Below are positions 44,101-64,000 of a stretch of DNA of 64,000 nucleotides, piece by piece; the stretch's first letter is position 1, and each line of letters starts with the position of its first letter. The DNA is from Fereydounia khargensis (taxonomy: Eukaryota; Basidiomycota; Ustilaginomycetes; Urocystidales; Fereydouniaceae). The DNA lies in the NCBI GenBank assembly GCA_026413255.1, contig JAOCZO010000007.1, positions 431,003 to 495,002 on the forward strand, read 5' to 3'. The position numbers and the translations under genes are program-made. Below the pieces are notes generated by a model. That model saw nothing but the letters and a program-made list of their open reading frames with translations. It was not told the DNA's origin and ran no database searches.

Positions 44101-47100
44101 GTTGCCGAATGCAGGGGAGCTTGAGGTCAGCGAGCCTGGCGTGAAAGCCGGAAGAGACGGAGGATCCATCAATGACCGCAAGCTGGACGTTTCTCGTGGA
44201 GTGTCGTGAGCGTTGATCGGGGCATGCGAAGGAAATCCTTGAGGGGCCGCTGTTCCTTCAACGCGAACAGGGTGCGAATCTGCTGGGTCAGAAACTGCCA
44301 TGTGATCTTCTGCAGACAGCGATGCTTCTGGTCTTGAGTCTGATTCCTGCTGAAATGTTTCCACTTGAGATGCAGAAGTGCTTCCAGCATGATCGTCGAA
44401 AAGGTCCTCAAGGTGGGCTGGATTCAGGTCGGACATGATGACGTCGTCTTCAGAATTGTTCAGCGTGGCTGTCGGATCTGGATTTGCGTCGCTGAGAGGT
44501 TGAGCCTGCTGATGTCCCTGTGCGACCTGTGAAGCATCTACCGAGGCATCCTTCGCTGATGTGGTACCTTCAATGTCGCCTGCTTGCGTTGTTGGCGGCT
44601 CCATTTCACCTGCAGTGGCATCCAGTCCAGTATCAGTTCCCATGAGCTGATCGAGATTAGCCAGTTCAACGTCTCCACCGAATGCAGCGGTGTCAGATTT
44701 GAATGCCGAGCCCATGTCGAAGGCTCCATCGTCAAAGAATGAAAAGTCATCCTCAGTCACCAGACCGAATCCATCAAACATCTCGTTCGAGCCCCTGCGT
44801 CTTCCAGTCCCGGAGGAAGCGGGAGCGTTGCTGTCTTTGCTGCCTCGACGAGAGCGGTCTAGACCGTTGATATCGCCGAATGGGTCCAGACCAGACCAAC
44901 TAAAACTGGGTGCTGTGCCAGGCTGAGAATTTTGCGCAGGTTTCTGATCGCTTGGCCCGTCTGTAGCCTCACTGGCGATCGACATTGAGTCGCCAACAGC
45001 CGTATCTTGCGAAGGAACGACAAAAGTCTGTCCTTGCTGCTCATCCACTTTTGCGGGCTCGGCAGCGCTTTCAGGAGCTAGGGGCGTCTGAACAGCCGTG
45101 TTTGCATCTAAAGCGGCCGAATCTCGGACTTCGAGTGGGACTTCTGGAGAAGACTTGGGCGAATCGGGAACAGAGCCATTCGATCCGTGTTCGACAGGAT
45201 CAATGATTGCCGATTCTGATTCAAGCTGGTGATCGGTGGAAGGCGGTGTCTCGGGAGGTGCATTCATTGCACGAAGCATCTTGAGTGTCGCAGTTGAGGT
45301 CTCACGGACGGGACTGGCGGAACCAATGAATGTTGGTAACTCGCTTTCGGTTGTGCCTCTTCCTTCCGCCGACGAATTGGAACCTTGTCCCTGCGAGAGT
45401 TCGTCGGAGACAGCGCAGAGAGCCGCAGGCCAAAGGAAGACGTCTTGCTGGGTTTTCGTCAATCTCGACTGAGCAGCTTTGCAGACGACCCATCGCGAGC
45501 CGCTCAGTGTGTCGTGATCAATGCCGTGGAGCTCGAACGATTCAATGAGTGAGCTCATGGCCTTCAGGAGCGCAAGCGAAGCCGTGGCTAACCCATGATT
45601 TGGATTGTCCAGCTCCGAGAGTCGACTGGTGTCAATATTACTCCAACGAAGGAATCGAGCATGAATGCCATGTGGGAGTAGCGTCAGCTGACTTTCCTGT
45701 CGGATCATGCTCGGCTCGCACTGTACCAGAGAGCGCAATGCTACTCGTGACGGTGCTAGCTGCAGCATCAAGGCATGTGGCGTAGTATAGACGGCCACTC
45801 GTGCAGTCAAGATACTATCTTCAGAGTCTTGTGCATGAGAACTAAGCGGGTGGATCAGCCGTTCCGTCCTACCAGGCTCTTGAGCTGCCTTTGCGGAACT
45901 CAATCTGAAAGGGAGCAGAGCTACATCGTCGCCGAACTTGATCATTCTTCTCTTAGTCGAAGCGAGACAATCGAGCAGAGATGCCCATGATGGCCCTTCG
46001 GTTGCGCTGGCCGCGTTGTCTGGCCGTCTTGTGGATTCTACGTTGGGCGTAGATGCGGTCGACGCCCATGCCAGGCCTAGGCCACTAGCCTTGGTCGGTG
46101 AGCCTGACCCTACTCTCTGACTTTCGGCAATGTCTTCGGGTCGAACAAGCGCCTTTGGTGGCCTGATTGGCGTGGTCGGTGGAAGGGTTGAGAGAAGTGA
46201 GGGCTGGCCTTGTTCGCGCCCCATCTCAGAATCTTGTGTGATTGCCATGTTGTCTGCCTGGATCGCAATCTGGCCTGAATCGTTTGACACTGTGCCATCC
46301 GCTTGGGCGGACTTGACTGCTGCGATAGTGTCGAGATCTTCGGTCCTCGCTTCGATCAGAAGATCAACAAGTCGGTGCTTGATGGCTCGTAGTAGCCTCG
46401 CATGTACAGTAGCCGTTGTTGGCTGGATGATCACTGAGCTTGGATCATCTTGCGAGAAGGCCGAGGTGCCAGGTGGCGTGAAGACGGCGTTAAACGAGTA
46501 TTCTCCAGAGCCAGTCTGGCTATCGTCCTTGAGTGGATCTAGTAGACGAGACAAGGCTTGTCGTAGTTCCCCTGTTTCCGGAGATGTTGTGAAAGTCGAT
46601 TCGCAAGGGCTAACAGTGAACATCCATAGAACCGGTAAGGATAACTGTTGTTGGTCTGGGGTCGTATCGTCGGAGCGATATGGAGCGGCTTCATGCTCTA
46701 ATAAGAACAGTGTGCCTGCTACTAGTTGCTGCACGTCGGCTGCGTGGCTGAGCCCAGGCTGATTTTGGTGTCTGCTGAGGTTTCGATCGTCTCGTCGTCT
46801 GCGTAACGACTGCCTCTCAGACCGGGCAATCTTGCGCAGGAGAGTGAGAGCATGCTGCCACGCCCTGTCGGCCTCATTGGAGATAGAGGACTCGCCCTGA
46901 GAGGCCGAAGCGGGTTCCTTGCCCTTCCCTTTGATATAGCGCTGAAAGTTGACCTTGGCACCAGGCGGCAATGGCACTTGGCTCAAAGAGCAGATAGCCT
47001 GCTGGGAGAGATGGACGCCATATGGAACCTGACGAGCGCGGAAGTGCTGGGTGGCATTGGTGAGGCGCGACGAGGAAGCAGCGCCAGAAAAGCTAGCAAA

Positions 47101-47268
47101 CTGTTTGGACAGGGGGGTGGACGAGGCAGTGTTGGTGCCAGAGGCGAAGACAGCTCGTTTGGAGGAGGAAGGGCTGTTCACGATGGCTGAGCTGCGCATG
47201 TGAGGCTGGGCGGCAGATGAGGATGGGCCGGAGGAGGCGCCATAATACGCAGATCCAGTGGCCCACAT
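41185..47268 (-). CDS. med13: Med13 (Ssn2/Srb9), Mediator CDK8-module subunit
   Basis: A single exon of 2,027 residues. Med13 links the Cdk8 kinase module to core Mediator and controls whether polymerase II can bind. The best evidence is the C-terminal region: LSTYLDRLSQDAETWLDTIG, CRASGYRGLLRLEQDIRETL, then GLTIVSAIDERGQSHEVRAW and ANVAWRVVVCKSQPMSGAEV. These match the Med13 PIWI-like C-terminal part, in which a 'WTDxxGE'-type strand is followed by a 'WRLVIxK' strand. Much of residues 300-1250 is Ser/Pro/Asp-rich and disordered. A poly-Asp tract is encoded at about 43345-43432. The ATG at 47268 is the first in frame. The N-terminus is weakly conserved, so the family call rests mainly on the C-terminal third. 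Confidence 0.84.
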   Translation of the reverse strand: MWATGSAYYGASSGPSSSAAQPHMRSSAIVNSPSSSKRAVFASGTNTASSTPLSKQFASFSGAASSSRLTNATQHFRARQVPYGVHLSQQAICSLSQVPLPPGAKVNFQRYIKGKGKEPASASQGESSISNEADRAWQHALTLLRKIARSERQSLRRRRDDRNLSRHQNQPGLSHAADVQQLVAGTLFLLEHEAAPYRSDDTTPDQQQLSLPVLWMFTVSPCESTFTTSPETGELRQALSRLLDPLKDDSQTGSGEYSFNAVFTPPGTSAFSQDDPSSVIIQPTTATVHARLLRAIKHRLVDLLIEARTEDLDTIAAVKSAQADGTVSNDSGQIAIQADNMAITQDSEMGREQGQPSLLSTLPPTTPIRPPKALVRPEDIAESQRVGSGSPTKASGLGLAWASTASTPNVESTRRPDNAASATEGPSWASLLDCLASTKRRMIKFGDDVALLPFRLSSAKAAQEPGRTERLIHPLSSHAQDSEDSILTARVAVYTTPHALMLQLAPSRVALRSLVQCEPSMIRQESQLTLLPHGIHARFLRWSNIDTSRLSELDNPNHGLATASLALLKAMSSLIESFELHGIDHDTLSGSRWVVCKAAQSRLTKTQQDVFLWPAALCAVSDELSQGQGSNSSAEGRGTTESELPTFIGSASPVRETSTATLKMLRAMNAPPETPPSTDHQLESESAIIDPVEHGSNGSVPDSPKSSPEVPLEVRDSAALDANTAVQTPLAPESAAEPAKVDEQQGQTFVVPSQDTAVGDSMSIASEATDGPSDQKPAQNSQPGTAPSFSWSGLDPFGDINGLDRSRRGSKDSNAPASSGTGRRRGSNEMFDGFGLVTEDDFSFFDDGAFDMGSAFKSDTAAFGGDVELANLDQLMGTDTGLDATAGEMEPPTTQAGDIEGTTSAKDASVDASQVAQGHQQAQPLSDANPDPTATLNNSEDDVIMSDLNPAHLEDLFDDHAGSTSASQVETFQQESDSRPEASLSAEDHMAVSDPADSHPVRVEGTAAPQGFPSHAPINAHDTPRETSSLRSLMDPPSLPAFTPGSLTSSSPAFGNSLAKTPRTPYSPIDDLTEPNVTLEGESFQPFYGRSLSSLQPQIGPFFLTNNDDADTGPKVEELLSEAGVQKEKATTPSSQVNLVPFAFLPFSHVDHSRLRPRTGQGHVDLTRKYGNRGKFGIHSALERTEPSPSSALDGKQSGAGKHSLQSSRTGTSGPSSASLPRSKEDLRRLRISRFKAPFSSNAWRSDALADRSKTSSRFKDRQMSGSAPDRLSAAQSDSSSDEDEDDDDDDDDDDDDDDDDDDDDGEEVSSDTGDDLDDLLLSNSASKLSLISTTQDLASSWPILATMVAPAHRAQSSSALGRGPRPWEGLSDRWIDTLARWLVEEPEFRAIMRLSGSECKNDRKSASLSVSPGDGLDVWSSLASLFPSSTNGNGQSTREDEPAFGPTIGSLIGCTGTAVTPEQTDESSRSPFGTIKALEPPRIAVGSQGSALKVSPTALGFWDKLNLSAVGGRKEVVAKVLQLPSSQVWQDEVVSWLGRLQHAFETFGLGSHVPAPETVLTLGDCQDAGLSTYLDRLSQDAETWLDTIGSLTNRLRNYLIQDKYVVLYVVQSPTSQDCRASGYRGLLRLEQDIRETLQDLPEGRAQHFIVRPVPPGMILESGNIGLGGQGLDLRDLAFSVYDQLRRSVCRQAPKTIHPESKLEHLGTVQYPAFSLLPSESVASTVFWGSERADSSGSVRLELQWPSKKLNILEEGMLLHIGYDLSTDKAGLTIVSAIDERGQSHEVRAWKAGGSLKEELRSIWRFVQQQAARANVAWRVVVCKSQPMSGAEVTAWSDLARDEKLAGSLNALDVTLACADWNTGFSAIPTVMGQSPHQDWALSTTPASDRVVLDASSQTFALLARLRLLVGGAEASDQPQVLSLRSSFLLEYERQEGLCLSSARGDGGAGMSGLNPQVLGIHLLQVYGAAAERGTGKQADLDERLEKITSSFEQLKLISRERHRLPGRWKRMPWHVGVALMLGDYLG
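43345..43432 (-). repeat. GAC/GAT tandem codons encoding poly-Asp in med13
   Basis: A run of GAY codons (GTC/ATC on the + strand) encodes about 20 consecutive aspartates after a DEDED stretch. The mixed GAC and GAT codons suggest either selection for the acidic tract or an old repeat that has begun to diverge. Confidence 0.9.
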
Positions 47269-49548
47269 GATTGGCAAGTCAAATATGCGAGGTGTTGGTG
47301 ATGGTTAGGACGAGGTTGGGCATCTTTGTACTCGAATGTTGCTGGGGATAGGTATGTGTGTATCCAAGTCTGGTCCTGGTTGCTATGCTAGGTGATGCGA
47401 TGGAGAATACGATATATGACAAGGGACAGGAAGCGTGAGACGAGTCGATGTTGGAAGGTATCTGAAATCGCTAGAATCAAGAGCTGTGCTGGAGGTTGAG
47501 GGAAAGAGGACAGGTGCTGTGTGGGTCGACTGTCGTGCGCATGAAAGCAGGGGCAGGAGTTGGGACCAAGCTGAGCCAGAAGGGAACGGAACAGAACGGC
47601 CAGTGGGACGCTGTGAGGTAGAAAGAGACGCTGGAGAGTACTGACAATACAGTACTGGAATGCAATGCGCCAAGGTTGGGCGCTTGACAGAGCGGTGGGC
47701 TAAGAATGGAGAGGGACGGAGGGACCCTTTTGCCAATGTGTCGTGCCGCAAGCCGCAGGCGTACTGTGTCTACTTGCTGCGAGTATTGTACAGTACTCTG
47801 ACTGCAGCTTGATTCAATTCAAGTGACTGTTGTGTGGCTTGGCCTGCCGAGGGTGTGACCCCGCTTTAGGCTTCAGGCTTTTTGTGATCGGAGCAAGGTG
47901 GAGAACCAAAAAAGCCTAACCGAAATGCACCCTACGTTGCAGATTCGCAAGAGAGACGCAACCACGACTGCCATGCTGTACCGTAGCGTACCCGTACCGT
48001 ATCGTACGCACAGGCAACACACGCCCGCTCAGTCAGTCAGTCAGCTCAGCCAGCCAGCCAGCCGGGGTCCCGGTTTTCTTTCGGTCTCTCGTTTTCTGGC
48101 GTGACAGTGACAGCGACCGAGGGAGTACTGTACTGTAATTTACACTTTGGCGCGTGCCGTGGCCGCAAGCTGCCGGGGGATTCGGATTCAGAACTCCCCT
48201 CCACCTTGATTGGAAATGAGCAGAGGTCGGGGCGGGTGAGTGCAAATGCACCCTTCATCCGACAGATGGCCGAGCTCAGCCCCAGTGTCTCCCGCTTGTC
48301 GAGTTGACGCTTTTGGTAGTCTGCCTGTTCCGGCGTGATTGGATGGGGTTGCGGTCCTATGCTCCAAATCGGCCTACAGCACTCCCCCAGCCGACGAGGG
48401 CAGTCAACCTGGCAGAGCGCCCCTCCATTGATTTTTGGCAAGCGGATACGGAGGGGGAAAATGAAAGCCGCACCCACGTGACGCACGCGAGTCCGAGCAA
48501 GTGCCGACCAGGACTGACTGCGTGGCTGGCAGGCGTTCAGCACAAGCCGTCAATGATAGGAGGCGTAATCGCACTGCGGGCGTTACTTGTCCCCTGCATC
48601 CAGTCTAGCCTATCAGCGGAGAGCTCAGGTGCAACCACTTCCGGCGAGTAGGAAGGGTCCAAACGTGGACGAGGAAGAGGCATGGGGTGGACAGGGCAGC
48701 AAAGACGCACTTGGGGCTGGATTCATCCGTTTCCCCTAGCGGATAGCATTGGTAGTAGCTGCAATGTCACACACAGCGTAGTCGAGCGATTGTGATTGTG
48801 ATCACAGTACAGCACGAGTCGGAACAAGCGGCAAGCGGCAAGCGACAAGCGGCTGCAACGTGTGCTGCTGCGAGGAGATGGAGGTGAGGCTGGCGAGGTC
48901 GCTCCTGTTCCGCACGGGCCGTTGCGTTTTTTCGCTTGCGACCCGAAACAGTGGCAAGGGCACGCAGTCGGGGTTCGAGGAGAAGGGGAAGGCGCATGCA
49001 GGCTTGCTTCACTGAGGAAGGATCTCCGGTGCAAAGCACCACGCTGACTTTTAGCGTACGCACGCGTTTGCAGCACTGTATGTGCTGCACATGTAGTGCC
49101 GTTCAATTGAATTGAGCTCCAGAGACCAACACGACCCGGTCTCCGTAAGAGGGAGGAACCTTGCATGACGAGCGAGTACCCTAACGCGCATACCGTACAG
49201 CAAAGAGATCGTGACACTCGGGTCGAGAGACAGGGTTGCTCCGGGACAGACCAACCAATACACAGCCCGTCGCCCGTATCACTCAACTTACTCTTTGGCT
49301 CTCAACTTTCACTCACTCACCTGCACTCGACGCTTGTTGTTACCTGTCGCCCTGCCCTGGACCCTATGACATGATCATATAGCATCCTACCCCCCTGTCC
49401 CTGTCCCCCTTCTCTCACGCATAACTCAGCCCAGCGAATCTCGACCAGCCCAGCCGGAAACACGTCTGCATGAACTTTGTTCTTGTCTCTGTCGCCTGCA
49501 TCTAAAGCCTACGTCTCTCCTTCCTCCTTCCGCCGCCAGTCTCCAACG
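47269..49548. promoter_or_regulatory. 2.3-kb divergent region between med13 and ric8
   Basis: No gene seen. Low-complexity elements: mixed GTACC/GTACG pentamers (about 47977-48010), CAGT then CCAG tandem repeats (about 48028-48064), a short GTACT array (48125-48137), and GCAAGCG-type repeats (about 48828-48854). The last 250 bases upstream of ric8 are C/T-rich, as in other promoters in the window. Confidence 0.5.
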
Positions 49549-52251
49549 ATGGCTGATATCGTCAGAGAGTATCTTTCTACTCCGCCCTCTACCAGGCAAG
49601 GCGACCCGGATACCGTGTTCCGATGGCTTCAGTCTCTCCAATCACAAGCATTCACCGCCCTTGGTTCCGTATCGGACAGCATTCGTTCCAAGTTCTGCAA
49701 AGCCTTGCTCGCCGATCTAGCCCAGGCAACTGGTACTCGCCAAGGTATCATCACTCTCAATTGCCGCACCAACTCCAAATGGAGCTCAAAGCGTGAGTCA
49801 AGCCTCATTCTGTACTGTAGCTACCGCACCGGCTCACTCTTCAGCTTACCTTCTCTTCTCAATCAATCAGTTCGCCTGAGCGCACTGGCAGTGCTCAAAG
49901 AGCTCAGTCGACTACCTGGCGGGAGTGCCCCCTTGGCCGAACAAAGTGTAAGTGTCCAAATCTGCATGAATGACCGCTGTCGAAAACGATATCTGACGCA
50001 ACATGATGACCAACCGTGTCACAGGGGCTTGAGTGTCTCCTCTTGCAGGTCGACTTTCCCCTCCAATCACCCAGCCCGACACCTTCGCCAACATCTCCGA
50101 CGTCTCCAGGCAATGCTTCCAACCCAGCCTACTCGCGTGGTGGAAGCGGTCGTCGGAGCAAGCCTTCGACCCCCACCAAGGATGCACCATCCAGCTTTGG
50201 GTCGTCGTCCATCCAGTCCCAATCACTGCAGGCCCAGGAGCCCGATTGGACGGTCACGGATATGGCATTGCGATGCCTCAACAATGTCCTCTTTCTTCAA
50301 GAGTCCTCACGTGCCTTGTTTGTCAGCGATGAGGTCCGTGGAGGCCATGCTGCTGTCAACCTGCTTGCTGTAAGTCTTGCGAACGGTTTCATGTTGGTTA
50401 CGAAAGAAGACATGACTGACACGGTGCATTGCACTCCCCAGGCGCCCAAAAAGACACCCGTCGACATCCTCTTCCTGGGAGCACGCTTGCTGTTCTTTGC
50501 TACTCTCTTCGAGTCTCCCTTCAACAAGACTGCCGTGGAGAAGCTCAACGTGATTGCCATCGAGGCTTCATGCACACAGGCCTTGACACAGGCCATTATT
50601 GAGTCAGATAGCCCCTCGGCTTCTTCAAGCGATAATGTGCTCCAACAGTCCGGCACGACGGCTCGCTTTACGACTGCGCTTTCCGACCTGCTCAAGGCTC
50701 ACTTCAACATCTGCCTCTACTATCCCCGACTCGCAGGCAACTCGGCTCTGCCGACAGATACACAAGAGCGTGCGATTGTCGGTGAAGGCTTTCACGAGGC
50801 CTTGGATGGCATGTTTGATCCCATCCTTTCCGTCGTTGCCCTTCTTCCTCCAAGCTCGCCTGCGCCCCTCACGCCCCCGGTAACCCATGCCATCGCGGCA
50901 TTGCTCAACTACCCAATGCAAGGCTATCAGCACCGTTGGGCAAGTACATCTACCTCCACCCTGGCAACAGGAGACCAGTCCAACGGCCCGAGCAGTCCTA
51001 CTTCGACCTCGTTACCTAGCAGCAGCTCTGCGCGCAAGCTGGCTGATAGCGTTTCGTCCATGTTCACCAACCGAGGAGGCAACAACGGCTCAAGTGGAAG
51101 TGGTACGCCGCTTTGGAGCAAGAAGAGCAAAATTCTCTCGGGCGAAAGCATTGCCTCGACCATCTCGCTCACATTGACACGCTCGCAGTCACGGCGGTCA
51201 AGCAAGACTTCTATCCACGATGTGGTACGTCCACCTGTTCGCTTCGGTACCGACATTTCAGCGTCTTCATCGTCTGCCCTAGAAGCAGCCCCGCCGGTGC
51301 TAGCTAAATTGCTGGCCTTGGCGGACAAAGTCCTTGAAAGGTATCTCTCGGCGCAAGGCCAGAACGCATCGACAGATGCACATGCGACTGTCGTTGAGGA
51401 TCCTGACAGCAAGACGGTCAAAGCAACCGCCAACAGCGACGGCCTTGACTTGGAGGACACCGCGCAGCCTTTGCTGCTGCTGCTGCGCAAGATGGCAGCC
51501 GAACACGACGAGTCGAGGAAGACGATCCGGGCGATCCTGCTGCCCAACAATGATCTGTAAGTACTCGCGACTGGACTAGGTTTGGTTTCCCTCACGACGT
51601 GTTTCTGATCACTGATATTGATTCGCTCTCCCTTTCTCTACCCTGGATTGCAGTGACCGAAGCAAGTCGATCGACAAGCGTCTGGACCTGGTTGGCCGGC
51701 TAGTGCGACTGATGAGCTCGGTGACGCTGCCACGACTAGCCCGAGCAGCCGGAGAATTGCTTCTGGCGACTTGTGATCTGGACCCGAAAACTATGACCGA
51801 CACGATCGGCTACGGGCCGTGCGCAGGATTCCTGATGAACTCTGGTTTGGCTAGTGCGCTACCCAAGGGCTCTGGCGACGGCGCGCCTGACGCACAGGGA
51901 CGCACAATCAACCCGATCACGGGGCAGTACAACCCGACTGCAGAGGAGTTGGCGGCGGATGAGATTTCGCAGATGACGGATGCGGAGAAGGAGGCTGAGG
52001 CTGAGAAGCTGTTCACGCTGTTTGAACGCATGAACCGTACGGGTGTGATCAACGTGCAGAATCCGGCGGCAGATTCGGGCAGGTTTGAGGAAGTGGTGGA
52101 GGAGGAGGAGCGCAAGAAACAGGAGGAGGAGGAAGAGGAAGATGAGCGCATTGTTGAGCGCGAGATGGCAGAGAGGAAGCGGCGGATGGAGGCGGCGCGG
52201 AGGCGAGCACAGGCACTCGCGGCCAAGTCGCCTCAGAACCCAACCGGGTAG
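49549..52251 (+). CDS. ric8: Ric8/synembryn, chaperone and exchange factor for G-alpha subunits
   Basis: Five exons: 49549-49792, 49871-49947, 50025-50369, 50442-51556 and 51654-52251, 792 residues with consistent phases. Ric8 folds G-alpha and stimulates its nucleotide exchange in the cytoplasm and at the plasma membrane. Armadillo-like helices: LRLSALAVLKELSRLPGG, DMALRCLNNVLFLQESSRAL, VDILFLGARLLFFATLFES, LLKAHFNICLYYPRLAG. The C-terminal block KRLDLVGRLVRLMSSVTLPR, then GYGPCAGFLMNSGL and NPITGQY, with an acidic helical tail, matches synembryn. A Ser-rich insertion (about 51000-51240) makes it longer than animal Ric8. The third intron (50370-50441) is 72 bases, free of stops and in frame. 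In smuts Ric8 would act upstream of pheromone and cAMP signalling. Confidence 0.9.
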
Positions 52252-52295
52252 TCGACCCAGCGCAGCCCGCTTGAGAGGAAGAGTTAAGGAGCCAC

Positions 52296-52972
52296 TTAAA
52301 CATTCTTGGTAATTGCACGTACAAGTCTGCGCTGTTCGGCAGAGTGAATTTTGCGGAGACTGGAGAAGAGGGTTGTGAGGATGAGAGTGGCGAGGAGGGT
52401 GACGGTGGAGAGGGTTGCGAGCTGGATGGTGTGAGTGAGGCTGGGATCTGCGTGTGGGACGGGAAGGGAGGTAGACCAGGGAGTTGGGGAACGAGTGAAG
52501 ATATGAGCGCGCTTGAAGGACGGAGGGAGGCGCAGGTGTGCGTGTGAGGGGGGAAAGAGGGATTCATCTGCGCCAGCGTCAGCTCTGGTCCGCACGAGTC
52601 GGAGATGGACGGCCAATACGTACCAGCCGAGAGGAAGCCAAAGGGGGGTGTTGGAGCATCACAGGCCAGGACAGGCTGAGCGGTAGCGTGTACGCGTCCA
52701 CTTGATCCAGGAGCGAGGTAGCGTCCGTGGAGCGTCACCGAACGCTGCTTGGTGAGGAAGGACGTTGGCCCCACTCGTGCGTCGTACGCCGGTGCCTCGA
52801 GGTCTACATGGCCGAGCACAGTCACATCCGACGTGTATGGGTCTGCGAATAGCCCGCTTCCAAGATGTACCAGCACCCAGCCCTCGCAGCCCGGGGAGGC
52901 TGGAAGAGAAGGAAGAGAAATGACCGGATGAATCGTCATTGATGGTCGTCGAGCAGTGAGCCTCAAACCCAT
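52296..52972 (-). CDS. pbn1: Pbn1/PIG-X, subunit of GPI mannosyltransferase I
   Basis: Two exons (52972-52624, 52567-52296), 206 residues. Pbn1/PIG-X is an ER membrane protein that stabilises Gpi14/PIG-M, which adds the first mannose to GPI precursors. The luminal domain has the family pattern: GWVLVHLGSGLFADPYTSD, HVDLEAPAYDA, LHGRYLAPGSSGRVHATAQP. One C-terminal membrane helix (QLATLSTVTLLATLILTTLF) and a short basic tail follow, as in PIG-X. The intron is 56 bases. An in-frame ATG at 52939 is an alternative start. Yeast Pbn1 is about twice as long, so this is closer to animal PIG-X in size. Convergent with ric8, with only 44 bp between stop codons. Confidence 0.8.
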
Positions 52973-53208
52973 TATCCCCCCACACTCGCGGTACTGCACT
53001 CAACACGATACGGTATTGCCTCTCCGAATCCCGAGTTTCAACGCGTCGTGCACGGACACTTGCATCTCGCACGAGTGACTACAGGCTCGGCCCAGGTGAG
53101 GTGACCATTGACAGTGGAAAGGGTACCGAGGCTGAGTGAGTGAGTCTGACTCGGTGTTTACAAGAGATAATTTAACGAGTGTAAAGATGATCAAGAGGTG
53201 CTAGAACC

Positions 53209-53224
53209 GGGGGGGGGGGGGGGG
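53209..53224 (+). repeat. Run of 16 G
   Basis: An uninterrupted poly-G tract about 30 bases after the stop of the adjacent minus-strand acyltransferase gene. On that gene's transcript it reads as C16. It marks the boundary between housekeeping genes and the telomere-proximal cluster. Confidence 0.9.
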
Positions 53225-53256: not shown

Positions 53257-54822
53257 TCACAGCTTGCTCGCACGGGGCGTCGGCGAGCAAGCCAATAGCG
53301 ACGCTAGGTTACGCTTGGCCAGCGCCAAGAAGCGGTGCATGTCCTCGGGCTCATAGTACTTGCTGTCAAAGCCCAGCGACATCTTGAGACAGCCATCAAC
53401 GCTCAGCAGGCCAATCCACGGCGAGGCGTTGATCTGCCTTCCCGTGTGGTTGAAAGCTGTTCGCTTGATCCAGTCTTGGCCCGACACAAAGTCGTTCTGG
53501 ATCTGGAGCACACCCTGCGGCGAGAATCCCGGCGCAGAGGGTCCAACCTGTTCGACAAACGTCTTGCCGCTTGCAATCGCCTCTTGCTCCTGCTCGTGCC
53601 TCTGGCGAAGGCTCTCGACGTATGTGTCACTCATGAACTGTGTCGAGGCAAGGTAATGAGGATCGCGCAGATGCGGCGCCAGTTGGTCTCGGATCTTGGC
53701 GCTCAAAGAACACAATTGATTAGCCAACTCGGCTCCCTGCATGTCTTCATCGAATGGAATCCAGAGGAAGACAACGTCAGTCGCCATCGGGATCGCCTTG
53801 CCACTCTTTGCAGTGAGTTCAGTCTCGACCCATCGTCGTGCGTTGCGCGTCATACCCATCAGAGCGCCCTTCTCTGTACCTTTGCCGTACATTTCTTTGA
53901 CCGCAAGGATTGTGGCAGCTGCTCCGGCATACGACACGCTCATTTTGGCCTTCTTGAGTGCTGCCAGGATCTCACGGCTCTCTTGAGGCGTGTATGTAGA
54001 CACAAGGCTGTGAGTGTAGTGCTCTCGTTGGGCGTGCGACTCGAGAGGGAGCATGGCAATCGACTCGGACATCTTGGTCTGCATCAGCTCGATCTGGGCA
54101 CGTGCCTCAGAAAGACTCTTCTCCCGGTCCGCCCGAGTAGGCTTGTACTTCTCCTCGTACGATACAATGGGGCTGACGGGAAGGCGGCGGATAGCCTCCT
54201 TCTGGTCATAAGCCAAAGAGGTCACGTCGAGGTCGTTGGTCTCTTTGCAGGTCACCATCTGCGTCAGCATATTGCGGAGCAGTGCGACAATGCTGTACAC
54301 GTCTACGACAGCATGCGACACATTGTAAATTACGCTGTGTTGCTTCTTGCCCGTGGTATCGATCAGGAGATAAAACATGGCTTGCTTGCCTCGTGTGGGG
54401 AGGCGACGGTTGTATGTCATCTGGTTGACTTGGTCCAAGTCCCGGTCATAGAGTACCACCAGAGTCTCATCGAGCCACTGCTGCGCATCTTGATTCGTCT
54501 GGAATGCCCGGAAGATCATTGTTTGGGGCACACGAAGGTCCGTGGAAAGCTCGAGAGCGATCTCCGGGTGATAGAGGCGGTTGAGGAGCCAGGCATTCCT
54601 GCCACGCTGGACGAGCTGACTATGATGGATGCTCGAGTGGAATTGCATGTAGATTGACAGCTCGGTGTGGCCATCCATCATGTTCTGGTTGTAGCTTGCC
54701 GAGTGCTCTTGACCGATGCAGATGCGCTCGTATACGCCCGGCGTGGTTTGAGTCCATTGGCCCAGAGCCTGAGAGGCGGTGCCGTCTGCCTGCTGGTCAG
54801 CTTGCTGAGGTACCGAGGTCAT
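53257..54822 (-). CDS. Condensation-type acyltransferase with C-terminal SKL (peroxisomal)
   Basis: A single exon of 521 residues. Residues 170-174 read HAVVD within YNVSHAVVDVYSI, the HxxxD catalytic motif of CoA-dependent acyltransferases of the BAHD/condensation superfamily. The partner structural region near the C-terminus reads WIKRTAFNHTGRQ, then GFDSKYYEPEDMHRF. The last three residues are SKL, a perfect peroxisomal targeting signal (PTS1). It is paralogous to the next gene: both share the order HxxxD/G motif, a GMTRNARRW- or FSAHGKRWF-like block, and the YYEPEDM/YFDPKEM segment. The ATG at 54822 is the first in frame. Peroxisomal acyl-CoA from partial beta-oxidation is the likely donor and a sugar or polyol the likely acceptor; a Mac1/Mac2-like role in mannosylerythritol-lipid assembly is the best hypothesis. 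Confidence 0.8.
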   Translation of the reverse strand: MTSVPQQADQQADGTASQALGQWTQTTPGVYERICIGQEHSASYNQNMMDGHTELSIYMQFHSSIHHSQLVQRGRNAWLLNRLYHPEIALELSTDLRVPQTMIFRAFQTNQDAQQWLDETLVVLYDRDLDQVNQMTYNRRLPTRGKQAMFYLLIDTTGKKQHSVIYNVSHAVVDVYSIVALLRNMLTQMVTCKETNDLDVTSLAYDQKEAIRRLPVSPIVSYEEKYKPTRADREKSLSEARAQIELMQTKMSESIAMLPLESHAQREHYTHSLVSTYTPQESREILAALKKAKMSVSYAGAAATILAVKEMYGKGTEKGALMGMTRNARRWVETELTAKSGKAIPMATDVVFLWIPFDEDMQGAELANQLCSLSAKIRDQLAPHLRDPHYLASTQFMSDTYVESLRQRHEQEQEAIASGKTFVEQVGPSAPGFSPQGVLQIQNDFVSGQDWIKRTAFNHTGRQINASPWIGLLSVDGCLKMSLGFDSKYYEPEDMHRFLALAKRNLASLLACSPTPRASKL

Positions 54823-56011
54823 GATAGGGGGGATATTCTTCCTAGTGTTTTCTTTTACCAAGTGAAAGAAGAGAGGAGGTGGGCTGTAGGAAGTGCGTAG
54901 CTGGCAAAGCTTGCGGGTCTTATCCGAAACTGAAGCCAGATAGGAGGGGAGGCCAACTCAACTTAATCACAGGTCGGGAGAACCGACTAGCATCGAGTCA
55001 AGTTTTTTGAGGCGTCCTTGCTGTGAGAGAAACGGGGGCGCCAGGTGCAGCAAGAAAGGTCCTGTAGCTAGGCGGCACACACATTTTCCTAGCCATGCGC
55101 TAAGCAATTGGCCATTTCGCACAAGTGGAGTAGATGCACTGCGACCCTTCAGCTCTGCCTTTTCCCCCCAGCCCGTACCCGTCGGAGGGCCCGTCGCATA
55201 CAGACAAGCCACGGTGAGCCTCTCGCTATGGTCCCGACAACGCTGAGGTTGTGAGATGGGAAAGAAATGAAAAGTGTTACATTTTCGCACTGCATCGGAT
55301 GTCAAGGGACTTGGATGGGACTCGGTCGCCTTGTCCTGTTGGGTCTCGGCTGCTGGGGCAGGGCGCAATCAAGAGGCCATGGACAGATCCACGGCGTCGG
55401 TGCTGCCCGTCACACTTTCCAAACGCACAGAAGGTTCGCGTTACCGTGCTCAAAGCGAGAGCGCGATACAGTGCCAATGTAAAACGCTCGGCTGCAGTCC
55501 ACCCAGGTTCCGGGGGTGAGGGCGTTTCTGGGTCTTCATCTTGGACGGGCGGCGCCAGTGACTGAACTAAATTACAGTAGTAACTTACAGCATGTGCCGT
55601 TGCATGCCCTCTCCTCTAACGACAAGAGCATCCTACCAAAGCTAGTGCTCACTCGTTGGCAGGGCGAAAACCTCCTACCGTGAGGCTTGATGCTTGAGAC
55701 TTGCGGCTTGCAGTTTGAGGCTTGAGGCTTGCACTCAGTTTCTCCGGCCCCCTCGTTTGTCGGCCTCAAGCTCTTGCTTCCAGGGTCCTGATGGCGACAA
55801 GCATACAGTATACTAAGCAGTACCTCTTGCCAAATTCGGCGAGTGCCCATTTCATTCCCATCTACCATATCAATCTCGTATTCTCTCCACACTCCCTTCT
55901 GCCTAAGCCTCTCTAGCACCCTCACTCCCTTCCTTCCCATCCCTCGCACTTCCTACTCCATACCCTGCCTCCACCATATCTTTATTAGCTACTCAAATTC
56001 ATCCAATCATC
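54823..56011. promoter_or_regulatory. Divergent promoter of the two acyltransferase genes
   Basis: 1.19 kb head-to-head region, so both genes are likely co-regulated from here. An imperfect tandem array of GAGGCTTG/GAGACTTG-like units lies at about 55681-55735. No other gene is convincing. Confidence 0.55.
55681..55735 (+). repeat. Imperfect GCTTGAG-type tandem repeat in the divergent promoter
   Basis: Roughly six units of the form GAGGCTTG or a one-base variant (for example TGAGGCTTG, TGAGACTTG, TGAGGCTTG) in 55 bases, about 280-330 bases upstream of the second acyltransferase start. It may be a cluster of binding sites or simple slippage. Confidence 0.65.
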
Positions 56012-57801
56012 ATGTCAGATGCCGAGAACGTAAACGATGAATGGTTCCAGACCGGTCCCAACAGACTTGAACGCCCTTTGCGTGGTGCCGAATTGATGAT
56101 CAACGTCGCGGAGCAGGAATTCGAAGGCAACGTAAGGTTTCTGCCCATATCATTACACTTCTGATTCTAACCTTGGTCCTGATTTCCTCTTTCTAACAGT
56201 ATCAGCTTGCATTCAGCTGCTATGTCAACCATTCCTTCTCGGATGAGACCCTCAGGGCCCGTCTTCCCACGGCTTGGTACAAGACCCGCCTGATGCTCCC
56301 CGAGATTGGCGTCAAGGTTCTTTCCCCAGAAGGCGAGCTTGACACTGCCTTCTTTGACGCTATCACCACCTGGGAGGAAGCAAGAGACTGGGTCAACGAA
56401 ACAATCAAGATTGTCAATGACGGCACCAACGTTGACGAGGTGGTCGACCGATGCGCTCAAGGCCTTATCAAGTCACGCGGCAAGCAAACTGTCATCTACT
56501 TTGTTTGCAATGCCCGCAACGGACGGAATGGCTTTGTGTGGAACGGCTCTCATTGCCTTACCGGACACCGTGGTATCTTGAACCTTATCTTTCTCCTCAA
56601 GCTTCTTGCCGATCCAGACTCTGCCACTCCGCTCAGTGAAGCGTTCGATCCAGAGGAGCTCGAATCCATCATCCCTCGTCTGCCTCAGAGCATGATTCGT
56701 GCTTATGAGAAGAAGTTTCCTGCAACCGATGAAGATGTGGAAGCAGCTTTCGCTACTCAGCAAGTCGTGTCCTCTCGATTTGAAAAGGTGAGCTTCTTTC
56801 CACACCAGACCTGTTCCTTTTGCTAATCTTCACCTACTCTTCTGCTCTGTTCACCTGAAAGGAGTCGATTGGAATCCCTGTCCAGCCAAATTGGCGAGAG
56901 CGTCCATCCAAGATGTCCAACCTTCGCTTCAGTCTGGACTGGAACGAATCTCGCCGCGCCCTTGCCACGCTCAAGCCTCTGGGAATCACCCTGACAACCG
57001 CATTCTACGCCTGCCTTGTCTCAGCGATCACACAAATGTTCGGAAAAGAATCCAATCTAGGCGCTCACCTGATGTTTAGTGCTCACGGCAAACGCTGGTT
57101 CAAGACGGATGGTGAAGATGGCGACCCACCGATTGGGATGGCGATTGTTCCTAGTGGAGCGTGGGTGGACAAAAAGGAGATCGATCTAGCTCCCACCGAG
57201 CTCGACGGTCTGGTGCGACTTGCCAAGAAGATTGCAAAGGAGCAAGAGCACGATTTGCGCTCGCCACATGTCATTGGCACGTACGACCTACTTGCCCAAG
57301 GCTTTGCAGCAGCCGTACCCGAGATGAAGCAGCAAGAGTAAGTTTATCCCATTTGATAATGTGCTTGGACAGGATAGCATAGGGCTCTCATACTGATGGT
57401 GCCATTCTCTCTCCAAATTTTCATCACAGACCGACCTACTCTCGTCCGGTGCTGACCTCGCAGGCGGAAGTGTTATTCCCCATGTTCTTCGGGACAACGC
57501 AGGATTGGATCAAGTGGACCGACTTTACCTTTGCCGGACGCAATACTGACCCAACAGTGTGAGTACACTCGGACAGGTTTTCAACTTGGACCCGTCTGCT
57601 GACGCCTGCCTCATTTCGTTTGTATCTTGATACAGCTGCTTTGCACTTCACACAGGAAGGGCAATGATCCGATTTGTCATGGTGTTTGACGAGCGCTACT
57701 TTGATCCCAAGGAGATGCAGCAACTCGGCTCTCTCGTCTCGATTCTTTTCTCGCGCTTCCACCGGGTCAGCAAGGTACCGGCCCTTGTTGCGCGTCTTTA
57801 A
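56012..57801 (+). CDS. Second condensation-type acyltransferase, C-terminal ARL, HxxxG active site
   Basis: Five exons: 56012-56131, 56200-56787, 56862-57337, 57430-57558 and 57636-57801, 492 residues with consistent phases. Paralogue of the neighbouring divergent gene: MLPEIGVKVLSPEGELDTAF corresponds to YHPEIALELSTD, and MIRFVMVFDERYFDPKEM to MSLGFDSKYYEPEDM. The catalytic-motif region reads NGSHCLTGHRG, residues 158-162 being HCLTG, so the usual structural Asp of HxxxD is Gly. The C-terminus ends VARL, and ARL fits the PTS1 consensus (S/A/C)-(K/R/H)-(L/M). Five exons here against one in the paralogue means the duplication is old or one copy passed through intron loss. Likely a peroxisomal acyltransferase acting with its neighbour on one glycolipid. 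Confidence 0.78.
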
Positions 57802-58848
57802 TATTCACCACGACAGACTTGGGTTGGTGTCGGACGCCGCAATGATCGTCCCCGCAGTTGTCAGGCTGCTCTTGGTCCCCGACACAGCCAAGGTCACGCG
57901 TCGATCCAGTCTTCAAACCCCACATTCGCTTCTCGTCCCCCGCACAAACGCACCTGCATACATTATCTCTCTGTTATATCACACACACACTCTCTCTTTC
58001 TCTCTTTGATATCTCTTTACGGGTTTTCACCCATGTTCCTTGCTTGGTGTACTTGGTTAGCTCATACTCCAAATGGTAGCGACATTCAGCCTCTCAGTTT
58101 CTGACTCTTGTTCTCTCGCACGTGATGCAGCCGACTCTTTTCATAGGTCCCGTTAGCAAAGAATGACGTATGATATTGCTCGCCTAGTGCATGGGCGAGG
58201 CAAACAGTATGTAGCCATCTGCAGTCCTGAAGGCCAAGACCGTCTAAAGGATCTGTACTGTACTGTACTGTACTGTACTGTACTGTATAATGAAGACAAG
58301 AGCGCGATCGGAGCTGAAAAAGGGGAAAAAGGCGAACGGAGGAACCTGTCCGCCGAAAAGCAATTAAAGCACGGGGCCAATTAAATTGTAACCCAATCGC
58401 AACACAACGGTTGTCCCAGCATTGTGGAGGAGAGCATCCGGCTGCTCACACGTGGCTGCTCTTGTGCCTAGAGCACAACTGGAAAAACACACTCAACGTG
58501 GATGGCATGGTATCCAATATTCTGTATCAAGTGATTGATAGACAGACAGAATGGGACTGGGCGTACTGTTACATGGAGGAAGGGATATCCTAAAAGAGAC
58601 AAGTGCTGTGAGGAGTGTAAAGGGCAGTTAAGAGGAAAGGAAAAGGAGAATTGAGCTACGAAAGCGAAGAAAAGATGTGAATAAACGAAATTGATAAAGA
58701 TGATTCGTGATACCAACGATGAGCCCTTGACTTGAGTGAAAGAATGGAAGAATTACGGGGATAAAATGTTCGCTTGAGTGTTATGATCATGTGGGTCGCA
58801 AGTATAGATTGCAATCTCTGCTCCACGATGGAGCGAGACATTGGCCGC
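57802..58848. other. Acyltransferase-glycosyltransferase convergent intergenic region
   Basis: 1.05 kb between the two stop codons. It contains CT-rich sequence (about 57970-58010) and the longest pentanucleotide array of the window (58253-58287). Short frames on both strands resemble nothing known. Confidence 0.5.
58253..58287 (+). repeat. (CTGTA)7 pentanucleotide array
   Basis: Seven exact copies of CTGTA. The same unit, in either orientation, recurs near 5430, 5481, 8236, 39324, 39339, 48125 and 62892, almost always between genes. Confidence 0.95.
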
Positions 58849-60388
58849 TTAGTTGATTGACCTCTCGATGGCCTTGATTGGTACGTTGCCAGAGTAAGGG
58901 CCGTAGATCCGAGCGTGCGACTCGACAATTCGTGCTGCCGCTGCGGGGCCACCGGCCAAGCGAGTTCGGAGAGACCAGGTGACAGCGCTACTCTTGAGTG
59001 CACTCCACTGGGGGCCCAGGATGTAGAGGAGCTTGTCTCGGATATCAGCTGTCTCAATGTAAGGAGGACGAGAGCTGCGGATGCCAAAACCAAACTTTTC
59101 TGCCAGCACACCGTACTCGTGCGTGTCGAGCCACTGGCTGAGAACGAGCTGGGGCACTCCAAAGAAAACGGCCTCGTTGAACGAGTTGCCGCCACCGTGG
59201 TGAACGAAAGCCTTGAGCGCCGGGTGAGAGTAGACGCTCTGCTGGCTGGCAATCCAGTTGGTAAGACGGATGTAGGAGGGGATTGCGTCGATGGCAAACG
59301 TCTTTTCCGAGTCAAGCGGTCGGTTCATCTTGAAGAGGAATCGAATCTTGCCACCTCGAAGCTTGTGCACGTCCTTGAGCGCCTGAATACAGTTCCAGAA
59401 CTCGTGCTCGAGCCAAATAAACATGCTGCCCATGTTGACATAGACCACATCCTCGCCAGCAGCCTGGGCCTCATCCATCCATCGCGTCTCATCGCAGCCG
59501 TCGGCGATGTTCTCCTCCAGGTGGAAGCCGGCACCGACGAAGACAATGCTGGCAGGTTGCTTGGGGCAGTCGGTGAGGCCGGGAGCGTTGAAGTGGATAC
59601 CACCGACACAGTGCGGGTCCTCCCACATTGGTGGGAGAAGTGTGAGGTCACCGTTGATGCCAAAGGAGGTAAGTCGCATCTCCTTGGACAGAATGCTGCG
59701 CTTGAGGGAGAGGTCGTTGCGCCTAATGTTGTTGAGAAGCAGACGCGTGCTGATGTACATGTCTGCGGGCAAAGTAGAATTCACTGTCAGTAACAAGCAG
59801 GATCGAATGTTTGTAGCTTATGCTGTTCAGAGACTACTCACTTTCGTAGAAGGTCTTCCAGGAGCCGGAACGATCGCCCGCAACAGGGTGTGGGTCAAAG
59901 GCACTGGAGAGAGCGGTAAATCCGGGGGAGCAGGGGACGGTGAACATCCAGCTGCGCTTGGTCATGCGGACACCACTAATCATGGGTGGGGAGAGACAGT
60001 CGACGACGATCATGTCAGGGTCGAGGGAGAAAATGTGGTCGCGCACAAGGTAGGCGGTGGCACGGAACTCTTCGGGGGGAGTGAGACCAATGTCGATGCA
60101 AGCCTCGAGGCTAGAGACATCACCAGGCTCCTTTCGCATGAGGTGAATGCGCTCCTGTACGGTGGGAGTAAAGTCCTCCACTGCTCGAGCATCGCCGAGA
60201 GGAATGTAGCCGACCCTCTCGCGGGCGCTAGGGTCCTTGAGCTCGGCGCGCCACCTATCCATTTTCTTGGAGAAGGAGTTGCCAGTCATGAAGGTGACCG
60301 TGTGTCCCAGGTCAAGAAGCTCTCTCGCCGTGGCGAGCTGGACGTTAATCTCGCCACTGGATGGAATCGTGAGGAAGGCGATGTGCAT
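58849..60388 (-). CDS. Family-1 (UGT-type) glycosyltransferase, Emt1-like
   Basis: Two exons (60388-59842, 59762-58849), 486 residues; the 79-base intron is phase 1. GT-B fold: the N-terminal acceptor domain starts MHIAFLTIPSSGEINVQLAT, then RELLDLGHTVTFMTGNSF. The C-terminal donor domain has VVYVNMGSMF (near residue 290) and the donor-binding signature HHGGGNSFNEAVFFGVPQ (near 370-387), followed by LSQWLDTHEYGVLAEKFG. No signal peptide or membrane helix is seen, so it is probably cytosolic. From memory, the GEIN-x-x-LAT start and the DARAVEDF block resemble Emt1, the GDP-mannose:erythritol mannosyltransferase of smut glycolipid synthesis, but the specificity cannot be read from sequence. Next to two PTS1 acyltransferases it would make the sugar core they acylate. 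The ATG at 60388 is the first in frame and immediately precedes the GT-B fold. Confidence 0.82.
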
Positions 60389-63300
60389 GTTGGCCGTGGT
60401 GTCGGAGATGACGAAGGGGAAACGATAAGGAAAGGGAAAGATGACGCCGCGGATAGGAGAGGGACACGATTTTGGAGACTCAGAGGGTATATGGCGACAA
60501 GAGGGTCTCTCAGCTGGGCTGGCGCTCAATGGGACTGGAAAGGGATGGCATTAAGAGGTTCTGGTGAGGTACGAACAGGGTAGATATACTTGTTACATTA
60601 TGAGAACCTCTCTCCCATTTTTTTTCTCTCTTGTGTTAGGATATTCCTACCTAGTGATTTTTTTTCTCGTCACTGTGGCTGTATGCTTGCCTGTCCCATT
60701 AGAGACGGGAACAGCAAGGGCATTTCAGCGGGCAAGGGAAGAAGGAGTAGGTAAGACTGTCATGCATCAGGCGTACAGATCGAGTATAGGCGAAGAATTG
60801 TTCGGTAGCATTGAGAGCTGCAACGGGGCTGGATACGGGAATGTCAAAATGGTCGGGGGTTGACTGTGTGGTGAATCAGTGGCTTGTGGCTTGGGGTCAG
60901 AGGGCAGGCGGGACAGCGAGGAGGAGGCGGAGGCTGATGCGAGGATGGTGTAGAAACATGTTCGCCTTGCCCTCTGTCCAATTTCTTCGATACCCGACAT
61001 GATGCTTGCTTGCTTGCTTGCTTGCTGCTAGAAGAGGGACTACACCCAGGCCGAGAGGGGGGGAAGGGGGAACGACGCCTTTCGTCTTACAGGCAGCCAG
61101 AGAGCGCCGAGCCGACCGGGAAGGGCGATAAGCTCCGCTCAATCAATCCATGCGGGTCACACTTTGCTTTGCTCTGCTGTGCTGTACTATAGGAGAGCAC
61201 ACCTTGCTCACTGTACTGCACGCTGCACCTGTCCAGCAACGACGATCATCACTCAACGGGCGGCCGGGCGCGGCGCAGCACAGGACCCAGAAATTAAATG
61301 GCTGCTGCAGCACACGCGTTGGGCTCCGCTGCACCCGCGCACGTCCACTTCCACGGCAGCGGTTGCGCATCCAATCAACAAATGGGTCTGCAGCGTCTGT
61401 TTGTTCGCTTGCCGCTTGCCTGCCTTCCCTCGGCGCTGCTGTACACACAGTACGCTAGCAGAAACGAACGTGGACGTGGATCGCTCCTCCCTATTCCCTC
61501 TTCCCTCTTCCCTCACCCCCCTCGAAACTGCGCTGCGCACACTAGCCCGTTTCTTCCATCGTATCGAGCTGGTGATTGGAGCAGCAACGTCCTGAGCCAT
61601 TCCCAGACCATGCATCGTTGTCTTGAGAAGAATCATCATTTGCGCTAGGGCGGCATCTGTACAGGCACAAGTCGGGATCATGTCATACGGCGCCTCTGCT
61701 TTATCCTGATCAAGCGAGCGACCCTACCAACCATTTTCACGCGAAACAGCAAGGATAGCCAGCATGTGTATGCGCCCCCGTTACCATACATTTGCTTGCC
61801 TCGGCTGGCCCCCCTGCAGTGGTTGTGACCTGATCAGAACCGGATCAACACCGTTCACCATCACTTACTCAACCTTCCATCGCACCCGCAAGCAGTCAAT
61901 CAAAGCAATTAACCCACCAATTTCTGTACCTTGTGCGCATTTTGAGTGGAGCCCCTCGCTCGACAGGATCCCGTTGACTCCTTGACGACAGCATGGCAAG
62001 GGTGACCGGCCGGCTTTTGAAGGACTTAAGGACAGGAACGGTCGTCTCGGGAGAGACGGGACGTGGTACTCTGGCGGCAGAACCCTTTCCGCCTTTCTCT
62101 GTCCTTTGGAGAGCCAAGTCTCGCCTCCAGTAGTGCGATGGTCGGATGGTCTCGGCTGCCTGGTATTGGTTGGGCGACGCTGTGAACCAGGGTGGTTTGT
62201 GATGGTGAGTAGATGATTTTGCCGCGGAGGGTACAGTCACTTGGTGCAAACTCACCCGGGCCCAAGCCCGAGCCCAAGCCAGCGCCGTGTTGGTGAGACA
62301 CTGTAGCACTGTGCGCTACTGTTACGCCTCACTTACTGTATTTCTCTTCTTCTCCAGTCGAAACTGCCACTGCAGTAGACGGCAGCGCCTAACGCCTGCA
62401 TACAGGATGCGTCTCCCAGAGGATTCTATTCCTGCGCCCGCGCTGTCAAGTCAAGCCTGCCCCGTTATCGGATCGGCTCCGGGCTTTTTGAATTTTCATG
62501 GATGCACTGCGACAGCGCTGGTCTGGCACCGGACCCTTGTCCCCGCATTAGGCTGTACGGGAACAGTGCGATTTAAACCGCGACTCTTTGCTCACTCTTG
62601 GACGTGACAATAAAAAAAAAAAAATAAAAAAAAGTTCAACAAAATCCATTTTCCCAAGCAGTTTCGCGGTCGTCAGGCGACCAAGTGAAGAAAGCCACCA
62701 CCAGCGCATCGGTTGCTGGTACAGACAGTGCTGCCCCAACCACCATCTGAGACACTGGATCCTTAGCGCTGGCTCACCTTGGCACACTTGCCTTTGGTAC
62801 CGAGCCGCAGCCGGCCATCCACTCCTCGTCTCAGATCGCCATCCTGATTCGGCCGATTGCCCTCGAGGACGTGATTTGCATCGGAACACCACTGTACTGT
62901 ACAGTATATGAAATATACTCCTGATGCTAGATGGCCTGCAAGACAGCCTATCCAATGCAACAACAGATACCGTACCAGCTATGGTAAGACTCGAGATGGA
63001 AAAACCTACAATACATTTGATTACAAGAACAGTTCTCGATGGCCCTACAGTAAAGAGGAGCGCGAGTGGTGCCGAGCCTGCTGAGTTCATCACAGACAAC
63101 CAACCGATACTGTACTTGGCGGAGCTCGATCGATTTGCACTAATTGAAAACAGAAACCGTTCCATGCCAAGGCTTTGCTACACACACAGTAGTATGCGCA
63201 GACAAACCATGACAGAGCAAGTCGGTAACAGCAGCGTACGAGCAGAATTTTTCCTCTCTCCCCTTGACTTGACCGGATGAACATTAGAATCGGGGTGAAC

Positions 63301-63900
63301 TCAACGCCCAACGCTACCTGCCTAGCTACTGTAGCTACCCAACCTACCATGTCTCAGCCTATGGCCGCCTTTGCCCGCAGGTCTCAGAAGTGGACCCCAA
63401 GACGCGCCTTTTCGTGCATCTCCCTGCATGTTCTTCGTGCGACCACACAGCCTGCCTAATGCTCACTGAGGCGCGCCGGCCATTAGGGCCTGCCTGCCTG
63501 TTTGTTTTTTTTTGGTGTTTGGGCGCAATCGGCTCTTGGCTTCAAGCTGACTCGGGTAGCAGCATCGATGCTGTCCTCCAGTGAGCCCAACTGCCAGTGC
63601 CATGACTGGGGGGCGTATCCCGTGGGTCACGGTAGTACTGTACGGTGATGGACACTTCCAGCACCGTATGACTGTTTTTTGATAGTGATGCTGCCGCTGC
63701 AAATTAAAGCACGCGATGGTAAAGGGGCCGTGCCTTCCCATGCCCGCCAGGCAGAAACCCACTGCGATTCACCATCATGGACCACCCAGGAAGCACTGCA
63801 AGTATGCAATTTAATGACTAAAGCAGCGATTTCATTATTAAATGTGCTCACGTACCTGATCCTCTCCGCTCTCAATGACAATATACACACACTCACACAC
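60389..63900. other. Gene-free subtelomere
   Basis: 3.5 kb between the glycosyltransferase start and the telomere. The first few hundred bases are presumably its promoter. I see a CTTG tetranucleotide repeat (about 61003-61026), an A-rich run (about 62609-62634) and short GTACT repeats (about 62892-62905 and 63634-63645). No RecQ-type subtelomeric helicase or transposon domain is recognisable, and no frame looks like a real gene. Confidence 0.55.
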
Positions 63901-64000
63901 TTAGGGTTAGGGTTAGGTTTTTTTTTAGGGTTAGGGTTAGGGTTAGGGTTAGGGTTAGGGTTAGGGTTAGGGTTAGGGTTAGGGTTAGGGTTAGGGTTAG
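63901..64000 (+). repeat. Telomere, TTAGGG repeats
   Basis: Two perfect TTAGGG units and one cut unit, a run of nine T (63918-63926), then uninterrupted TTAGGG to the window end. The G-rich strand runs 5'->3' towards the end, as it must at a right chromosome end, so this is a true terminus and not an internal relic. Confidence 0.98.

Follow-up and report, generated by a model that had tools for sequence, protein, structure and literature searches.

Gene models and protein families of the locus

The locus described here lies close to one end of a 64,000-base stretch of Fereydounia khargensis DNA (contig JAOCZO010000007.1, positions 431,003 to 495,002), referred to hereafter as the window. It comprises three intact gene models whose outer ends fall at 53257 and 60388: two divergently oriented acyltransferase genes, A and B, and a glycosyltransferase gene that meets B tail to tail (Table 1). 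A sequence-only reading of this DNA had proposed the same three genes, describing them as two paralogous acyltransferases with HxxxD/HxxxG motifs and peroxisomal targeting signal type 1 (PTS1) tripeptides, and a glycosyltransferase of family 1 (GT1) with its donor signature, set between ric8/pbn1 and a gene-free chromosome end. The gene models and searches bear out this layout, with a strong match for Ric8 and a weak one for PIG-X/PBN1.

Gene A is a single exon encoding 521 residues, with one HxxxD motif (HAVVD, residues 170-174, His at 170) and a C-terminal SKL. Gene B encodes 492 residues in five exons separated by introns of 68, 74, 92 and 77 bases, and carries HCLTG at residues 158-162 and a C-terminal ARL; a second motif in B, HSFSD at 51-55, lies off the aligned catalytic position and is not conserved. 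The glycosyltransferase (486 residues, two exons) bears HHGGGNS in its C-terminal donor region, and its 79-base intron (GTGAGT..GCAG) was chosen among six splice choices that keep the long frame. All five introns of the locus, four in B and one in the glycosyltransferase gene, follow the GT-AG rule and span 68-92 bases. A run of 16 G (53209-53224) lies just downstream of gene A, and seven perfect copies of the pentanucleotide CTGTA occupy 58253-58287, in the gap separating the 3' end of B from that of the glycosyltransferase gene.

Codon scoring, with eight long open reading frames (ORFs) of the window as the training set, was positive for gene A (Table 1), for two exon frames of B (+15.1 and +14.1) and for both exon frames of the glycosyltransferase (+33.0 and +11.6). 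Only two other listed ORFs of at least 80 residues between 53 and 64 kb scored above zero (+2.2 and +0.1). Two antisense segments within the glycosyltransferase gene also score (13.5 and 9.2 nats) and are taken as mirror signals.

In phmmer searches of 177,635 distinct Protein Data Bank (PDB) sequences, the only meaningful relative of both A and B was 8JOR, the structure of PtMAC2p from Pseudozyma tsukubaensis, an enzyme reported to acylate C3' of mono-acylated mannosylerythritol lipid, MEL (Nakamichi et al., PMC10619693). It was the sole match to B up to an E-value of 5; two further matches to A, with E-values of 0.25 and 0.55, are chance. Residues 10-467 of B align to 26-544 of 8JOR, placing H158 and G162 of B at the catalytic motif. 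B hence displays the features by which the Mac2p family is recognized: homology over nearly the full length, retention of the catalytic His and replacement of the Asp by Gly. The published account of PtMAC2p places its catalytic His158 in HTLNG, reports a more than 1,000-fold loss of activity for H158A, and sets this unusual HxxxG against the ordinary HxxxD of Mac1p (PMC10619693). At the aligned catalytic His, A presents HAVVD and B HCLTG, a difference that appears to repeat the Mac1/Mac2 split.

The paralogy of A and B is evident from their alignment (24% identity by BLASTP, 135 bits, E 6e-39; 26% by MAFFT), and the duplication looks old. B is closer to PtMAC2p (31%, 223 bits; 36% by MAFFT) than to A, while A and PtMAC2p share 21% (76 bits; 22% by MAFFT). 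Since B lies nearer to the Pseudozyma enzyme than to A, the A/B split would, if rates were similar, predate the separation of this lineage from Pseudozyma, and such an old split looks like what would be expected of a Mac1/Mac2 pair.

The C-termini are consistent with this assignment. Mac1p proteins of MEL producers are described as ending in ARL (PMC8815271), and a PTS1-like C-terminal AKL can be read from the reverse primer that PMC10619693 gives for PtMAC2. Ends matching [SAC][KRH]L occur in five of the 994 ORFs of at least 40 residues on both strands of the window, and two of the five belong to gene A and to the final exon of B. SKL in A and ARL in B are PTS1 tripeptides, predicting import into peroxisomes.

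Domain and structure searches were less informative for these two proteins. The only Pfam family of note for A was AATase, below threshold (E 0.0012, 18 bits, cut-off 22), and B had no Pfam match up to an E-value of 1. Matches of A to NCBIfam PqqC (0.027) and to Pfam Vasohibin and Ebola-like_HR1-HR2 were taken as chance. AlphaFold2 run on the single sequence of A returned no usable fold (mean predicted local distance difference test score 33.8). Pattern matches to B and the glycosyltransferase in virus and prokaryote contig collections, and to A in viral contigs, yielded no confirmed case; given that these collections hold viruses and prokaryotes, they have no bearing on fungal distribution.

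The glycosyltransferase matched Pfam EryCIII-like_C (2.4e-10) and UDPGT (8.4e-8), both above cut-off. Its best NCBIfam model was the macrolide glycosyltransferase TIGR01426 (MGT; 5.6e-15, 55 bits, far under the cut-off of 260), and its PDB relatives were a mixed set of UDP- and macrolide-type glycosyltransferases, led by 8I8Z (2.5e-11). The Pfam and NCBIfam matches place it in GT1. The first paper on Emt1, the MEL glycosyltransferase, reportedly likened that enzyme to macrolide glycosyltransferases. No membrane-like stretch was found at the N-terminus of the glycosyltransferase, and Emt1 is likewise described as a GT1 enzyme devoid of signal peptide or membrane span (PMC8815271).

Flanks and chromosome end

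Table 1. Features of the locus and its surroundings (window coordinates).
Feature	Position	Strand	Evidence and remarks
ric8	50010..52251	+	Two ORFs with Pfam Ric8, 6.3e-40 and 1.4e-47; flanking gene, inner side
pbn1/PIG-X-like ORF	52052..52999	-	Weak Pfam PIG-X/PBN1, 3.9e-5, 24.1 bits, cut-off 23
Gene A, putative Mac1-type acyltransferase with PTS1	53257..54822	-	Gene model; motif; phmmer 8JOR 4.3e-15; coding score +45.9
A/B divergent intergenic region, 1,189 bases	54823..56011		No coding signal; presumed promoters of A and B
Gene B, Mac2-type acyltransferase with PTS1	56012..57801	+	Gene model; phmmer 8JOR 3.9e-56; 31% BLASTP identity
Exons of B	56012-56131, 56200-56787, 56862-57337, 57430-57558, 57636-57801	+	Gene model
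GT1 (GT-B) glycosyltransferase	58849..60388	-	Exons 60388-59842, 59762-58849; Pfam EryCIII-like_C, UDPGT
Gene-free subtelomeric stretch	60455..63900		No coding segment above 7 nats; no Pfam match in 10 scanned ORFs
Telomeric TTAGGG repeats	63901..64000	+	Fill the region up to the window end

From 60454 to the window end the codon score revealed no coding segment above 7 nats, and Pfam searches with another 20 ORFs, drawn from the locus and the chromosome end, returned nothing above the curated cut-offs. By these tests the chromosome end is gene-free. Across the window, the Pfam scan took in 20 of the 25 ORFs of at least 200 residues, and Rfam gave no match. Within the telomeric array, 63901-63930 holds a few TTAGGG units followed by nine T (63918-63926) before the repeats become regular; this run is either a degenerate repeat unit or an error of the assembly.

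On the inner side of the locus, Med13 domains fall within one open frame of 2,039 codons (41188-47304), which had no match in the PDB. Med13, PIP5K, SDA1 and VTC domains all sit in long single open frames of the window, suggesting an intron-poor genome like those of Ustilaginomycotina; B has four introns, whereas A and several of these conserved genes are single long frames. Coding signals are few between 8000 and 20900, where the segments detected by the codon score are all short (8255-8563 and 10291-10602 among them).

A candidate glycolipid pathway and its alternatives

The known MEL pathway also involves an acetyltransferase, Mat1, and a major facilitator superfamily (MFS) exporter, Mmf1. 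No Mat1-like gene was detected at the locus: apart from the antisense mirrors in the glycosyltransferase gene, no other segment between 53 and 64 kb exceeded 7 nats, and none of the 20 further ORFs matched an acyltransferase family. An Mmf1-like exporter was not found in the same interval, nor was an MFS match among 17 window ORFs scanned with Pfam. In Ustilago maydis, Mmf1 is reported to export acetylated MEL only; the unacetylated form, MEL-D, reaches the supernatant whether Mmf1 is present or not, and the mmf1 phenotype is suppressed once mat1 is deleted (PMC9600162). The joint absence of Mat1 and Mmf1 from this locus is therefore coherent, since unacetylated MEL-D leaves U. maydis cells without Mmf1.

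We favor the interpretation that the locus is a divergent three-gene core of the MEL type, making a diacylated, unacetylated glycosyl-polyol, and assign it a probability of roughly 0.62. Under this model, the GT1 enzyme would join a sugar to a polyol (mannose and erythritol, by analogy) outside the peroxisome, and the resulting acceptor would reach the peroxisomes. There, A would add a first acyl chain through its HxxxD motif, and B, with its HxxxG, a second one on the sugar, both presumably drawing on acyl-CoA from beta-oxidation; the order of these reactions and the lengths of the chains are suggested by the MEL precedent. Lacking Mat1 and Mmf1 at the locus, the product would stay unacetylated, like MEL-D, and leave the cell by a route independent of Mmf1; the three genes would be co-regulated. 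The sequence-only reading had proposed an acylated glycolipid, either from a reduced MEL-type pathway or as a new product that is not acetylated and is exported by other means, and this holds up in part. Its comparison with Mac1 and Mac2 is strengthened by PtMAC2p being the sole meaningful solved relative and by the agreement of motif split and PTS1 ends with published Mac1/Mac2 features, and its view of acetylation and export fits the secretion of MEL-D without Mmf1 in U. maydis; an Emt1-like role and the nature of the product would still be proposals drawn from analogy.

Several observations weigh against this interpretation. Within the Ustilaginaceae, identities of MEL-cluster proteins to their U. 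maydis counterparts are reported to range from 52 to 100% (PMC8951962), and PtMAC2p is reported to be 60% identical to U. maydis Mac2 (PMC4915680). B reaches 31% against PtMAC2p, although the published range refers to U. maydis proteins, and this low identity means that substrates may differ. Mac2 relatives more than 30% identical are also reported from ascomycetes and Exobasidium (PMC10619693). A is just 21% identical to PtMAC2p, and its putative Mac1-type label derives from the HxxxD motif, the PTS1 and homology to that enzyme. The glycosyltransferase, at 486 residues, is about 125 shorter than Emt1 proteins (612-617 residues; PMC4915680), and its likeness to Emt1 lies at the level of the GT1 family, so that an Emt1 role would be by analogy; moreover, a review locates Emt1 at vacuoles (PMC11117751). 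Finally, no significant upstream motif was shared by A/B and the glycosyltransferase gene, as detailed below.

The same divergences lend themselves to a second explanation, in which the cluster logic is retained but the sugar goes to another acceptor (mannitol, arabitol, a small phenolic or a hydroxy fatty acid) and the glycoside so formed is then acylated by A and B. The short glycosyltransferase with its family-level GT1 matches and the 31% identity of B to PtMAC2p would both fit, and MEL analogues containing arabitol, mannitol or ribitol are on record (PMC4915680). The Mac1/Mac2 dichotomy and the PTS1 ends instead point to a sugar acylated in two steps, as in the MEL pathway, and we consider a different glycolipid clearly the less likely product.

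An unlikelier arrangement is that of a satellite acyltransferase cluster serving a complete MEL cluster at another place in the genome, with A as a Mat2-like or Mac1-like accessory enzyme. A split pathway of this kind has been published for Sporisorium reilianum, where a second small cluster, mac3/mat2, provides further acylation (PMC12421966). That satellite comprises two acyltransferases, and its published description mentions no glycosyltransferase, whereas the present locus has one, and B falls far under the identities published inside the Ustilaginaceae. The readings are not all exclusive, a satellite cluster being able to coexist with the three-gene core, and their odds need not sum to one.

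Slightly more doubtful still is the view that the three genes share no pathway, being either unrelated subtelomeric neighbors or an unexpressed relic. Subtelomeres gather fast-evolving genes, which would favor it, and so would the promoter regions. HGATAR sites occur at 0.8 per kb in the A/B intergenic region and at 2.0 per kb in the 1 kb preceding the glycosyltransferase gene (window density 1.5), and plain GATA is slightly denser in both than in the window (5.9 and 7.0 per kb, against 4.5). The two regions share somewhat more 9-mers and 10-mers than random pairs do, short of significance (P about 0.085 and 0.08), 11-mers give P 0.28, and no 12-mer is common to both. On the other hand, all three frames are unbroken and their codon use resembles that of the host, and genes of putative Mac1 type, Mac2 type and GT1 are immediate neighbors, no other gene having been detected between them. 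A pathway of the cellobiose-lipid type (ustilagic acid or flocculosin) also pairs a glycosyltransferase with acyltransferases, but its cluster sets P450 hydroxylases and a fatty-acid synthase beside the transferase, whereas genes for a P450, a hydroxylase or a fatty-acid synthase were not detected between 53 and 64 kb and both A and B match the MEL enzyme PtMAC2p, leaving this assignment very improbable.

If the three-gene core does make such a glycolipid, MEL-type clusters would be extended to fungi only distantly related to known producers. More tentatively, the locus could represent an early-branching MEL core outside the Ustilaginaceae, the original pathway consisting of the transferase, Mac1 and Mac2, with a Mat1-Mmf1 module added later as a unit in that family; the ancestral product would then have been an unacetylated, transporter-independent diacyl glycolipid. 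Such a set would allow a test of the idea, suggested by U. maydis physiology, that acetylation and Mmf1 export are a separable module acquired later. MELs are commercial biosurfactants, and a distant three-gene set would offer new acyltransferase and glycosyltransferase specificities.

Relation to known systems

The nearest known system is the five-gene MEL cluster of the Ustilaginaceae (mat1, mmf1, mac1, emt1 and mac2), which is inducible under nitrogen starvation and with which the locus shares an adjacent GT1 enzyme and HxxxD and HxxxG acyltransferases with PTS1 ends. It differs in having no detected acetyltransferase or MFS exporter and in the alternating direction of A, B and the glycosyltransferase gene. 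With two of the cluster genes not found and B 31% identical to PtMAC2p, we describe the locus as MEL-core-like and do not class it in the five-gene type. In the part of the open-licence PMC literature surveyed, no account was found of emt1, mac1 and mac2 forming a set of three that lacks mat1 and mmf1. The subtelomeric position of a MEL-type cluster is not new, the P. antarctica cluster being likewise reported near a scaffold end (PMC3933340).

At the protein level, B resembles PtMAC2p (8JOR/8JOS) in its nearly full-length homology, in the HxxxG at the same alignment position and in a PTS1-like C-terminus, and departs from it in overall identity, in motif (HCLTG versus HTLNG) and in length (492 versus 549 residues). 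The mac3/mat2 cluster of S. reilianum and U. maydis also holds two acyltransferase genes and serves the MEL pathway there; mat2 is a relative of the acetyltransferase gene mat1, whereas here a GT1 gene adjoins A and B. U. maydis Mac3 is reported to carry a TIIV motif near its C-terminus, which is absent from A and B. As for the glycosyltransferase, PtEMT1p is reported to share 68-72% identity with other Emt1 proteins of the Ustilaginaceae and 35-39% with some ascomycete and Malassezia relatives (PMC4915680), and these Emt1-like enzymes from outside the Ustilaginaceae belong to the same GT1 family as the enzyme encoded at this locus.

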